The notes below the pieces were generated by a model. That model did no database searches. It was not told where the DNA came from and saw only the letters and a list, made by a program, of their open reading frames with translations. Positions 7,549 to 34,334 of a stretch of 61,181 bases of DNA are shown here, in pieces (positions within the stretch are counted from its first letter, which is position 1; each line of letters opens with the position of its first letter). Origin of the DNA: Pseudomonadota bacterium (lineage in GTDB: Bacteria; Pseudomonadota; Gammaproteobacteria; Acidiferrobacterales; Acidiferrobacteraceae); the NCBI GenBank assembly GCA_021816625.1, contig JAKAXM010000015.1, positions 1 through 61,181 on the forward strand, given 5' to 3'. The position numbers and the translations under genes are program-made.

Positions 7549-8631
7549 CTAGGCCTCGTGGTCCAGATGCAGCTTTTCAATCTCCGCACTGACCTGCTTT
7601 AATATCTGCGCCACCTGGTTCTGGCTCACCCGCAAAGAAATATGGCTGCGTCTTTGCAAGACCGTTGCCATGGTCTTCAAAAGCGTCTCAATCCCGTCGA
7701 GCCGCGACTCGACCCCTGCCACCGCCCGCGCGATGTCGACAAGCTCCTTAGCCCCCCCGATGCCCATGTCACGCGCGGCCGGAAATGGCAGCGCCGGGCT
7801 CGGGCGGGAGCGGGCATTGAATGGCTTCCATTGCAACTCAACGATCGCCGACTTCACGACCGCCTCATCGACACACAGTCCATCATCGGCAAAGGCACAG
7901 GTAAGTGCGGTGTCGCACAACGTATTGATAAGCCGCGGGATACCCCCTGTGTACTCGTAGATGATAGGTATCGCATCGCGCGCAAAAAGCGCCTCGGGAT
8001 TGGCCGCGCCCGCGACCCGCAGTCGGTGAAATATATAATCGGCGGATTCCGCCTCCGTCAGGGCGGCTATATGAAAACGCAACCGCACCCGTTGAGTAAG
8101 CTGCTCAAGACCGGGTGCATCCAATGTTTCATTCAGTTCCGGCTGACCCACGAGGATCACATGAAGTATCTTCTGCTTCTCGGTCTCGAGACCCGACAGC
8201 ATGCGAATCTCTTCCAGAACCCGCCGATTGAGATTCTGGGCCTCATCGACGATCAGAACGAGTTGCTTGCGCTTAAGGAAGCTCTCGACGAGGAACGACG
8301 AGAGCATATCCATCAGCTCGACCTTGCCCGCATTGAACGGATTGAGACCAAACTCCACGAGTACCGCCTGCAGGAATTGCGTTTCGTCTAGCTGTGTCTG
8401 GAATATCTTTGCGACAAGGACATTATCGTCGAATTCCGACAACAGTTTACGGATCAGCGTCGTCTTGCCGGCCCCCACTTCGCCCGTGATGATGACAAAT
8501 CCGTCGCGATTCCGGATGCTGTAGTCCATATAGGCCTTGGCGCGTGAATGCGCCGCGCTCATATACAGAAAGTCCGAATCCGGCGTTATCTGAAACGGGT
8601 GCTCTTTGAGTCGAAAATGGTCAAGGTACAT
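7549..8631 (-). CDS. ExeA-like AAA ATPase of the PEP-CTERM/exosortase-type EPS locus
   Basis: A 360-residue ATPase starting MYLDHFRLKEHPFQ, the usual beginning of GspA/ExeA-like secretion ATPases. Walker A is GEVGAGKTT, Walker B is LVLIVDEAQN, and a sensor region GGIPRLINTLCD follows. The last 80 residues look like a coiled coil. An upstream in-frame ATG at 8727 would run deep into the previous gene, so I use 8631, which leaves only 2 bp after the outer-membrane protein's stop. The family (putative secretion ATPase, PEP-CTERM locus subfamily) is a hallmark of these clusters. Its role in export or assembly of EPS or of sorted proteins is unproven. Confidence 0.88.
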   Translation of the reverse strand: MYLDHFRLKEHPFQITPDSDFLYMSAAHSRAKAYMDYSIRNRDGFVIITGEVGAGKTTLIRKLLSEFDDNVLVAKIFQTQLDETQFLQAVLVEFGLNPFNAGKVELMDMLSSFLVESFLKRKQLVLIVDEAQNLNRRVLEEIRMLSGLETEKQKILHVILVGQPELNETLDAPGLEQLTQRVRLRFHIAALTEAESADYIFHRLRVAGAANPEALFARDAIPIIYEYTGGIPRLINTLCDTALTCAFADDGLCVDEAVVKSAIVELQWKPFNARSRPSPALPFPAARDMGIGGAKELVDIARAVAGVESRLDGIETLLKTMATVLQRRSHISLRVSQNQVAQILKQVSAEIEKLHLDHEA

Positions 8632-31471: not shown

Positions 31472-31970
31472 TCGATCAACCCCCTCTCCACGATATGATG
31501 GCAGGGCCATTCCCTGACCCCCGCAGCGATTCTATAGGCAAGACGCAAGGGCACGCTATCCCTCGCCCCTCAAACCGATCGAACCGGCCGCTCCCGATAC
31601 CCCTCAACGCCAAGCCGTCCACACCAACGAAAGACCCGCCATCCGGCCCCGCGTCACCCTAAAAGGCGCTATGCGCGCTACGCGGGCGGTGTGCTAGCAT
31701 AAGCTCCCACTCCACCGCAGGGAGAAACGGGCCCCTACCGACCCCCGCGCGGCACGCCCGGACGTATGGATGACCGGCGCGACCACGCAGCAGCGCATGC
31801 GCAGGACGCTTGCCCCAGCCCGGCTGGCACGCATCGCCGCAGACCCCGGCGCCCGCCACATGCGGCCGTCACGATCTATTCGACAACCACGATAGCATTA
31901 ACCCACCAAGGAGGATACGGGAAGGCGCTATCCCTCTCCGGCACGAAGCCGGGGTTTCCCGTTACACATC
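31472..31970. other. 499-bp noncoding stretch between galU and the CHRD-like gene
   Basis: No convincing gene is present; short frames here lack ribosome-binding sites and homology by eye. The left part should hold the galU promoter, but I see no good boxes. An 11-bp direct repeat CGCTATCCCTC occurs at 31554-31564 and 31926-31936. The extended -10-like TGCTAGCAT (31692-31700) lacks a -35. The right end holds the split ribosome-binding site described separately. Confidence 0.6.
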
Positions 31971-31973
31971 ATG
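31908..31973 (+). promoter_or_regulatory. Split ribosome-binding site: SD and ATG separated by a foldable stem-loop
   Basis: A perfect AAGGAGG lies at 31908-31914, 56 nt before the ATG at 31971, and no start codon follows it at normal distance in any frame. Between them the RNA can fold: ACGGGAA (31917-31923) pairs perfectly with TTCCCGT (31956-31962), and CTCCGGC (31936-31942) pairs with GCCGGGG (31948-31954) around the loop ACGAA. If this forms, SD and ATG are left about 10 nt apart. The pairings are seen; the function is inferred. Confidence 0.55.
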
Positions 31974-32369
31974 AAGAAACTGCTACTTACGTGCGTGCTC
32001 GCAGGCCTTGCCACCAGCGCTATGGCCGTCGCCAAACCCCTTAAGGTTCAGCTGACTGGAGAAAATGGCTCCGGTGAAAGCGGCTACGCCCTGCTCTACC
32101 CGCATGGCTCGCGCACGCGCGTCATCATCCACATGCACGGGGTACCCAAGGGGCTCGTCCAGCCGGATCACATCCACGCGGGGACTTGCCCCAACGTGAA
32201 CCCGCGTCCGGCGTATATGCTAAAGCCCATCAAGGACGGCAGGTCCGTCACCCTGATCCATGCACGGCTAGCGGCCCTGCTGCACCATCCGATGGCCATC
32301 AACGTGCATGAGAGCTCCAAAGACATGCAGAAATACGTGGCCTGCGGGGACATCCGCGGGCATTATTGA
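31971..32369 (+). CDS. Small secreted CHRD/SOD-like protein
   Basis: A 132-residue protein with a textbook signal peptide (MKKLLLTCVLAGLATSAMA, cut after AMA). The mature domain has the pattern of small secreted proteins distantly related to CHRD or Cu/Zn-SOD folds: NGSGESGYALLYP, IIHMHGVPKG, DHIHAGTCPN, AINVHESSKDMQKYVACGD. Several His and two Cys (in HAGTC and VACGD) could bind metal or form a disulfide. The function is unknown. It is a single-gene unit closed by a good terminator, and its translation start is unusual (see the split ribosome-binding site). Confidence 0.8.
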   Translation: MKKLLLTCVLAGLATSAMAVAKPLKVQLTGENGSGESGYALLYPHGSRTRVIIHMHGVPKGLVQPDHIHAGTCPNVNPRPAYMLKPIKDGRSVTLIHARLAALLHHPMAINVHESSKDMQKYVACGDIRGHY

Positions 32370-32383
32370 GCCTTTAGAGTCCC

Positions 32384-32427
32384 AACGGGCAGACGGCCTG
32401 AAAAAGGTCCGCCTGCCCGTTCTTGTA
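32384..32427 (+). terminator. Rho-independent-like terminator after the CHRD-like gene
   Basis: AACGGGCAG (32384-32392) pairs perfectly with CTGCCCGTT (32413-32421), and CGG-CC continues inside against GG-t-CCG, around the loop TGAAAAA. A short T-rich run (TTCTTGT) follows. On the other strand no T-run follows the stem, so it should act mainly on plus-strand transcripts. Confidence 0.75.
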
Positions 32428-32462
32428 TCCGGCCGCGCATCGCCTGCCGGATGTGCGGGGCC

Positions 32463-34334
32463 TCACCCTTGGGCCTGCGCCAACGCCCCGTGAGGCGGGT
32501 GGCCGATCATATCCCGAAGCGCCCGAGCGAGCCCCTCCTCATCCCCATCCGCACACAGGTCCTGCAGTCGCGCAAGGCCGGCATTGAACCCATCGGCCGC
32601 CACGCAGGTTCCCGCCGTGAGCCGGATCTTCGGGTGCGCCGTCGCGAGCAGCGCCTCGTCGGCATAAAAAAGCTCCTCATAGAGCTTTTCTCCCGGACGC
32701 AACCCCGTGTAGACGATCTCGACGTCCTGTCCCGGACGCTTACCAGACAGCAGAATCAATTGTTCGGCGAGATACGCAATGCGGACCGGTTCGCCCATGT
32801 CCAGTACAAAGATTTCGCCACCGGCCCCAATGACGCTCGATTGCAGGATCAACCCGCAGGCCTCCGGTATGGTCATGAAGTAGCGCGTGATCTCGGGATG
32901 CGTCACGGTCACAGGCCCTCCTTTGGCGATCTGCGCCTTGAAAAGCGGGATCACGCTGCCCGCCGAACCCAACACATTGCCAAACCGCACCGTAAGAAAA
33001 CGGGTCTGCGACTGACCATTAAGCTCCTGGCAGAGGATCTCGGCCGCGCGCTTTGTGGCGCCCATGATGTTGGACGGATTGACGGCCTTATCCGTCGATA
33101 TCAACAAAAAGACCCCGCAACCGTGGCGGGCCGCCGCTTGGGCGAGGGTCTGGGTCCCGAAGACATTATTCAGAACCGCCGCCCGACTTTGGCCCTCCAG
33201 CATGGGTACGTGCTTGTACGCCGCGGCATGGAATATGATCTCGGGCCGCTCCCGTGCCAGAGTCCGGTCCACGAGCAACGCGTCACGGACGTCGCCCAGT
33301 ACCGGCCTAAGGGACAATTGCGGGAAGTCGCGGCGCAGTTCGAGCTCTATCGTGTAGAGATTGAATTCGCTGCGCTCAAAGAGAATCAGTGCGCGCGGCG
33401 CAAGCCTTGCGATCTGCCGGCATAGCTCCGAGCCGATGGAGCCGCCGGCGCCGGATACGAGCACGACCTTGCCCCCGAGCCCGCGCGCGATCTCCTGCTC
33501 ATCGAGCAAAACCGGCTCCCGGCCCAGCAGGTCCTCGATACGGACCTCCCGCAGTTCCTGGATATTGACTTGGCCGTCGACTAGGTTCTGGAGTCCGGGC
33601 AGGATGCGAAACGGCCGCCCGCTACGCTCGCACAGCTCGATCAGGCGGCGCATGCGCGCGGCCTTGGCCTCGGTTACAGCAATAAAGATGATATCGGCCG
33701 CCAGACGTTCCGCTACCTCGGGCAGCTGCGCGCAGTCGGCGATCACCGGGACGCCGTGTATGTCCTGGCCTAGGCGCCGCGGATTATCGTCAACGAAGCC
33801 AACGGGACGAAAGCCGACATCGGAACCCCGCAAGAGGTCGCGCACCAGCATCTCGCCTGCGCGCCCTGCCCCCACTATAAGGGCCTTCTTGCCGGCTGGC
33901 TGATAGAGCCCGCGGTCCTTAAAGAAGCGATAAAAAAATCGCGGGCCCCCCAGCAACACCATCAGCAGCAAGCCATCGAGCACGAAGGCCGAACGCGGCA
34001 CCTGGGCCAACCGCACCCATAGGAACAAGACGAGGGCGCTACCCGCCGTCCCCGCGATGATCGCCTTGAAGATGCGCAAGAGGTCGGGGACCGAGGCAAA
34101 GCGCCAGATGCCCCGATACAGCCCCATCCCCCAAAAAACGAGGCCCTGAACTACGATGACGACCGGCAACAAGACGAGGCTTTGGCGAAGCATGGCGGCC
34201 GGTACATAGCCGAGATTGAATCGGAGCCAGTAGGCCCCAAGCCACGCGAGAGGGATCACAAACAGATCGTGGGCGACGATCGCCCAACGTCCGCGGGGCG
34301 CCTTAACGCGCGGGATTGCGGCGAGCTTGCCCAT
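32463..34334 (-). CDS. WbpM/CapD-type nucleotide-sugar 4,6-dehydratase
   Basis: A 623-residue inner-membrane protein: four membrane helices, a first Rossmann domain (ALIVGAGRAGEMLVRD) and a C-terminal SDR domain (VLVSGAGGSIGSELCRQI). The catalytic site reads NPSNIMGATKRAAE, with Met in place of Tyr before the Lys, as in WbpM/PglF UDP-GlcNAc 4,6-dehydratases that start QuiNAc or FucNAc synthesis. The upstream frame reaches 34427; I use the ATG at 34334 (MGKLAAIPRVK), with GGAGGG close before it. It overlaps the WbpL-like gene by 32 bp and ends the long minus-strand run. Confidence 0.92.
   Translation of the reverse strand: MGKLAAIPRVKAPRGRWAIVAHDLFVIPLAWLGAYWLRFNLGYVPAAMLRQSLVLLPVVIVVQGLVFWGMGLYRGIWRFASVPDLLRIFKAIIAGTAGSALVLFLWVRLAQVPRSAFVLDGLLLMVLLGGPRFFYRFFKDRGLYQPAGKKALIVGAGRAGEMLVRDLLRGSDVGFRPVGFVDDNPRRLGQDIHGVPVIADCAQLPEVAERLAADIIFIAVTEAKAARMRRLIELCERSGRPFRILPGLQNLVDGQVNIQELREVRIEDLLGREPVLLDEQEIARGLGGKVVLVSGAGGSIGSELCRQIARLAPRALILFERSEFNLYTIELELRRDFPQLSLRPVLGDVRDALLVDRTLARERPEIIFHAAAYKHVPMLEGQSRAAVLNNVFGTQTLAQAAARHGCGVFLLISTDKAVNPSNIMGATKRAAEILCQELNGQSQTRFLTVRFGNVLGSAGSVIPLFKAQIAKGGPVTVTHPEITRYFMTIPEACGLILQSSVIGAGGEIFVLDMGEPVRIAYLAEQLILLSGKRPGQDVEIVYTGLRPGEKLYEELFYADEALLATAHPKIRLTAGTCVAADGFNAGLARLQDLCADGDEEGLARALRDMIGHPPHGALAQAQG

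Follow-up and report, generated by a model that had tools for sequence, protein, structure and literature searches.

The locus lies in a 61,181-nt stretch of DNA from a member of the Acidiferrobacteraceae, hereafter the window. A gene for a 132-amino-acid protein, defined by its reading frame and its relatives, occupies positions 31971..32369 of the + strand, on which all parts of its leader lie as well. Its product begins with what looks, by eye, like a signal peptide. We keep the name CHRD-like from the initial annotation only tentatively: the window protein has no match in Pfam, although two distant orthologues, of four proteins scanned, have sub-threshold matches to CHRD (E 0.011 and 0.06).

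Direct reading of the window places the Shine-Dalgarno (SD) sequence AAGGAGG at 31908-31914 and the ATG start codon at 31971-31973, with 56 nt between them. Upstream of 31971 no in-frame ATG, GTG or TTG occurs within the 23 codons back to the first stop. The intervening sequence can form a 7-bp outer stem, P1, whose 5' arm is at 31917-31923 and 3' arm at 31956-31962, and a 7-bp inner stem, P2, with one G-U pair (31936-31942 with 31948-31954). A 12-nt loop, GGCGCUAUCCCU (31924-31935), lies on one side of the stems only. Folding in this way would leave SD and ATG separated by 10 unpaired nt, two before P1 and eight in the spacer between P1 and the start codon (31963-31970). The initial annotation had described this anatomy, the lack of an alternative start and a gap of about 10 nt, and each point is exact on reading the window. 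A promoter and terminator scan of 31480-32480 returned neither.

Conservation of the leader within the genus

The MFE structure of the window leader, folded as a single sequence, includes both stems. Its energy is ordinary for GC-rich sequence (z = -0.38, with 67 of 200 shuffles as stable). RNA folding, which had been suggested as a check, thus recovered the stems but not an exceptional stability. Because the energy is unremarkable, folding alone would not carry the claim that the SD is bridged to the start codon, and it is comparison that does so.

Of 14 genomes of the genus searched, 12, among them that of the window, proved to have the gene (13 copies), and the leader precedes every copy. 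The encoded proteins are 68-74% identical to that of the window. In an alignment of 12 of these leaders CGATAGCAT and the loop core AGGCGCTATCCCTC are invariant, the spacer after P1 measures 7-9 nt, and the linear distance from the end of GGAG to the ATG is 55-61 nt. Across the rows of the 11 relatives, 9 of them distinct, pairing holds in 97% of cells and changes on both sides are seen in 3 pairs; the outer and the inner stem alike carry compensatory changes. This count was equalled by 4 of 500 shuffles, and all slid controls were lower in both paired cells and score. Compensatory changes, which the initial annotation proposed to look for in relatives, are therefore evident in both stems. The seventh and innermost pair of P1 (columns 19-55) is broken in 4 of the 9 distinct rows and was omitted from a later, enlarged count, made up of the genus relatives, two copies from other genes and six pseudoknot pairs, in which 100% of cells are paired and 4 pairs have changed on both sides. 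The window sequence was part of neither count; the G-C pair that its relatives show at the base of the outer stem is A-U in the window. The predicted probability of P1 exceeds 0.5 in 8 of the 12 genus leaders and is below 0.5 in the other four (L006, L010, L011 and L012).

A gene retained without the pairing had been named as one observation that would refute bridging. No such case was seen within the genus, but more distant CHRD orthologues are of this kind: by eye, they have an ordinary SD adjacent to the start codon. This is what one would expect if the leader arose by an insertion in the ancestor of the genus, as proposed below. One distant match, L020 (E 2e-4), is by its frame not a CHRD relative and was disregarded. 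A leader peptide beginning right after the SD was considered and rejected as not conserved, since an ATG directly past the SD occurs only in L002, L003, L005, L007 and L008 of the 12 aligned leaders.

The leader matches the right end of IscB/HEARO transposons

The exact 14-mer of the loop core was found at 18 places in 15 of 60 relatives, 13 of them being the leader itself. Two further places carry the whole structure, one before a rubredoxin gene (L034) and one before a phosphoketolase-like gene (L039), the latter sequence being matched, where printed, by the named locus L164. Another, in L035, resembles a CRISPR spacer, and no structure surrounds the 14-mer in L036 and L037 (all by eye). A covariance model of 13 sequences with the window left out (R2) finds the window leader at E 3e-10 (31889-31963). 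With E up to 1 allowed, 35 of the 60 genomes have matches, of which the lowest-scoring are noise. The weak matches L095, L102 and L108 do not look like this element and were set aside.

Six of 40 fetched loci (L071, L083, L084, L088, L098 and L110) share a long frame, and in each of them the element stands at the 3' end of that frame. Both proteins scanned (L083 and L088) contain the Pfam domains RRXRR and HNH, which identifies them as IscB. The left end reads GTCAACTACCCCG and is present in six of the eight loci inspected; the omega RNA, Rfam HEARO (RF02033), was found in three of the eight element loci (L078, L084 and L088). Since the structure stands 3' of a Pfam-confirmed IscB with HEARO at the left end, it is the right end of an IscB/HEARO transposon. 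Judged by this comparison, the window leader is a remnant of such an IS200/IS605-type right end, spanning 31890..31970. The window junction reads CATC followed by ATGA at 31971, so that the remnant abuts ATGA as IscB/HEARO right ends do.

Nothing else of the transposon was found at the locus. The HEARO omega RNA and upstream iscB of a complete element are both missing from the window: the 61-kb sequence has no HEARO match, the window's genome (G000) has no RRXRR match, and a search of as much as 1.5 kb in front of each of the 12 genus leaders showed no IscB similarity (best E 1.5). In the window's genome R2 finds one full match and one partial match at E 0.44. Most likely, the element inserted in the ancestor of the genus and its right end alone was kept. 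Nothing argues more strongly for a function of the stems in the mRNA than their continued compensation where the transposon is gone.

Two other loci, L078 and L081, join a left-end-like sequence to a right end with most of iscB deleted, and both end at ATGA before an open frame. Rfam HEARO was found in L078 only. These are apparently short non-autonomous copies.

Right ends of IscB loci with a resolved P1 mostly carry an SD at its foot

Named genomes were scanned with an alignment of four IscB proteins, and the best 80 of 554 confirmed loci were examined. By their titles these 80 loci, which are near relatives of the four query proteins, come mostly from Pseudomonadota and Nitrospirota with a few others. 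Right ends were sought by an anchor on the 3' arm of the stem and the junction, and the same anchor was run on control windows. We found a recognisable right end in 72 of the 80 loci and none in 8. In the control run 79 of the 80 true windows had sufficient length, and the anchor picked out 72. Four sets of control windows, drawn from the same loci, gave finds by chance in 12 of 78, 6 of 78, 5 of 80 and 6 of 80, with frames of at least 60 codons in 2, 1, 4 and 2. The junction of the 72 right ends is ATGA in 70, TTGA in one and GTGA in one. A frame of at least 60 codons follows in 63 of the 72 and of at least 100 codons in 61, while 9 open no 60-codon frame. Elsewhere downstream, ATGA opens 100 codons at 124 of 382 occurrences on the same strand and 57 of 354 on the other. 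The 72 downstream sequences are all different, and in the first 32 of the 72 loci (two too short) 21 of 30 proteins have an in-frame Pfam domain past the junction.

P1 was found within 90 nt in 45 of the 72 right ends, its 5' arm not being found in the other 27. Its sequence varies by element family (GCGGGA/TCCCGC, GCGAGA/TCTCGC and GCGCAT/ATGCGC). Outer stems of the GCGTGA/TCACGC type occur only at spans above 90 nt or with a G-U and are outside this claim. The arms of P1 were selected for complementarity, so that the independent part is the SD that adjoins them: 42 of the 45 resolved right ends have an SD of at least 5 nt no more than 12 nt 5' of P1, compared with 6.6% in shuffles. In these 45 the linear SD-ATG distance is 45-93 nt, and the spacer from P1 to the ATG is 5-11 nt (mode 8) in all 72. 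The predicted probability of P1 in 43 transposon ends has a median of 0.83 and exceeds 0.5 in 36.

In 15 of the 72 loci (for example L161, L198 and L217) iscB extends across the right end and has the TGA of the ATGA as its stop, a 4-base overlap of stop and start. The iscB stop begins 2 nt before the ATG in 11 more. Translation downstream could be coupled with that of iscB in these 26 elements.

The elements usually sit immediately before start codons

One genome (G009) carries three elements, at radA, serS and efp, and in a close relative (G005) the same genes are empty. The empty radA site reads gtgagtgccc directly before ATGAAG, the last flank base being c in G005 and t in G009. The empty serS site reads gaccgctt before ATGATC and the efp site gagatcgtc before ATGACC, and in both the flank next to the junction is identical to that of the occupied site. 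The left flank thus runs straight into ATGA in the empty sites, which places the element immediately 5' of the start codon and means that the native leader is displaced to its far side. Pfam agreed with the identity of 10 of 10 picked downstream proteins: radA, serS (Seryl_tRNA_N), efp (EFP_N), accA (ACCA), CcmE, CarD, a PHP-domain protein, rubredoxin, an outer-membrane efflux protein and DUF1015. In the window, ATGA at 31971..31974 would accordingly be both the start of the gene and the insertion site, or target-adjacent motif (TAM), of the ancestral element.

Integration of HEARO elements next to ATGA or GTGA was reportedly described in 2009. From the junctions we infer that the TAM of the present IscBs is of NTG(A) type. 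This resembles IsrB, for which PMC9581776 gives TAMs of NTG, NTGA or NTGG and cutting by DtIsrB at ATGA. Other IscBs differ from the present ATGA junctions: OgeuIscB reads NNRR (PMC9640706) and OrufIscB reads NTAAA (PMC13180657). Since the TAMs of IscBs differ by lineage, insertion at start codons is to be expected only in lineages of the NTG(A) type.

A putative pseudoknot involves the one-sided loop

GATAGC at 31891-31896, upstream of the SD, is complementary to GCTATC at 31927-31932 within the loop. GATAGC shows no variation across the 12 aligned genus leaders or in the copies that precede the rubredoxin and phosphoketolase genes. The six pairs are constant in the genus alignment (A4) and so prove nothing there. 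Among transposon ends the two strands co-vary. Of 61 right ends with the stem, 11 lack the loop motif by our rule, and 22 of the remaining 50 have an exact upstream partner, compared with 4.2% in shuffles. Three versions occur: GATAGC/GCTATC in 16, GAGAGC/GCTCTC in 5 and GATGGC/GCCATC in one. The GATAGC:GCTATC pseudoknot would form in the mRNA. RNAalifold, which draws no pseudoknots, prefers a small 3-bp hairpin in the loop to it. GATAGC could also overlap the -10 region of a promoter.

An upstream partner was not found in 28 of the 50 motif-bearing ends. By record titles 15 of these are Halomonas/Vreelandella or Chromatiaceae elements, and a few others seem to have been overlooked by the rule (L175 and L201 show CAGAGC/GCTCTG by eye). 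With no partner found in 28 of 50 ends and no motif in 11 of 61, we ruled out the pseudoknot as a universal feature; it is probably genuine in some elements and missing from others. The Halomonas/Vreelandella and Chromatiaceae right ends (for example L204 and L214) keep a CGCTATCCCTCC-like motif with no upstream partner found, and this motif may therefore have a further role.

Discussion

IscB transposons are relatives of the ancestor of Cas9. We hold with good confidence that the window leader is a domesticated IscB right end that bridges a distant SD to the ATG. Elements of this lineage insert immediately before ATGA, in which the ATG is very often a start codon. The right end presents, in order, an SD, P1 enclosing one or two hairpins, and then mostly 7-10 nt. 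In the mechanism we propose, folding would set the SD next to the host ATG and so leave the gene with a ribosome-binding site that can still serve it, and we infer that ribosomes use this bridged SD. Where iscB and the omega RNA are later lost, the right end would stay as the 5' leader of the gene and go on working by bridging. More broadly, and somewhat more cautiously, we think it probable that this RNA-guided IscB lineage has made the start codon its insertion site, with ATGA as TAM, that the right end serves as a portable ribosome-binding site, bridged by a hairpin, which restores translation and lets insertion before serS, efp, accA and radA be tolerated, and that leftover ends become new leaders, as they would have done in this genus.

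If instead the bridged SD had evolved at the gene as an ordinary functional leader, transposons would have to resemble it by chance or to have captured it. All 12 genus genomes with the gene keep the leader, as such an origin would predict. We nevertheless regard it as extremely unlikely, given that the same right end lies 3' of iscB in 72 of the 80 named loci (best 80 of 554), 70 of them at ATGA and, by titles, in several phyla; that the same element precedes rubredoxin, phosphoketolase, accA, efp and other genes; and that more distant CHRD orthologues have, by eye, an ordinary SD. The leader might also be transposon-derived with hairpins that matter only as DNA, for recognition by the transposase, translation using other signals and the distant SD being incidental. 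IS200/IS605 ends typically carry subterminal hairpins, iscB reads into ATGA in 15 of 72 right ends, and the CGCTATCCCTCC motif is retained in ends without the pseudoknot partner, all in keeping with a role as DNA. The right-end hairpins probably do also serve transposition in this way, and for that reason their conservation in live elements is no proof of a role in RNA; only the genus leaders, which have no iscB, speak to it. There the stems show compensatory changes with no IscB similarity upstream, the P1-ATG spacing is kept, and the window has no SD-like motif between the hairpin and the ATG on direct reading. Together with the SD of at least 5 nt that adjoins P1 on its 5' side in 42 of 45 ends (6.6% in shuffles), this makes an exclusive role as DNA unlikely.

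The initial annotation had seen a possible ligand or protein site in the one-sided loop, which could make the leader a riboswitch with two states, the SD being bridged in one and paired to CCCUCC of the loop in the other. The 14-nt loop core is invariant in the genus, and SD and CCUCC could pair. Such pairing as a conserved off-state was rejected, however, because the SD changes in L007 and L011 are uncompensated in the loop. By eye, many full elements carry an extra hairpin in the loop's place, and in a subset GCTATC pairs with GATAGC; the proposed site is not supported. The downstream genes have no obvious common pathway, and a scan of 31650-32450 gave no Rfam match in the leader at E up to 10, its two sub-threshold matches lying outside it. 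A responsive switch is thus very unlikely. We give equally little credence to translational coupling, in which ribosomes would re-initiate from an upstream frame ending in the TGA of the ATGA. A 66-codon frame does end there in the window, and iscB itself stops at ATGA in 15 of the 72 elements and 2 nt sooner in another 11; across the 12 genus leaders, however, the frame ranges from 0 to 169 codons and so is not conserved.

The initial annotation compared the leader with phage T4 genes 25 and 38, and the comparative evidence supports this likeness well. According to PMC3014915, structure in split initiation regions of T4 shortens the SD-AUG distance from 22 to 5 nt in gene 38 and from 27 to 11 nt in gene 25. 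RNA structure would likewise bring a distant SD near the AUG here; the intervening structure is conserved and its predicted folding would put the SD at a workable distance. The present case differs in its much longer linear distances (55-61 nt in the genus leaders, 45-93 nt in 45 transposon ends) and in travelling with a mobile element and standing in front of many unrelated chromosomal genes. That origin, a recurring IscB transposon right end, is what the initial reading missed; overall that reading is partly supported. With the HEARO/IscB OMEGA transposons (RF02033, IS200/IS605 superfamily) the elements share the HEARO omega RNA at the left end, an IscB with RRXRR and HNH, and insertion by an NTGA motif, whereas the window keeps only the right end, as a gene leader. 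Among the matches listed from open-licence papers there was no earlier description of SD-bearing IscB right ends at start codons.

If ribosomes use these ends, IscB transposons would limit harm to the host by landing on start codons with a replacement ribosome-binding site. This would explain IscB elements before genes expected to be essential, provide a natural collection of long-range SD bridges for studies of initiation, and open a route from transposon ends to gene leaders. Annotation would be corrected as well, with such leaders listed as transposon remnants and not as riboswitch candidates.

Two observations lie beside this argument. A related genus has at L035 (G016:C67, about 8352-8408 of the contig) a CRISPR-like array whose repeat is I-F-like by eye and in which a spacer matches the right-end core at 29 of 32 bases; its host may have met a right-end element on foreign DNA. 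A second repeat family (L099, L100, L104, L107 and L109) has a similar terminal hairpin, ends in TTGA and, by eye, does not sit at start codons. It is perhaps a TnpB-type element.
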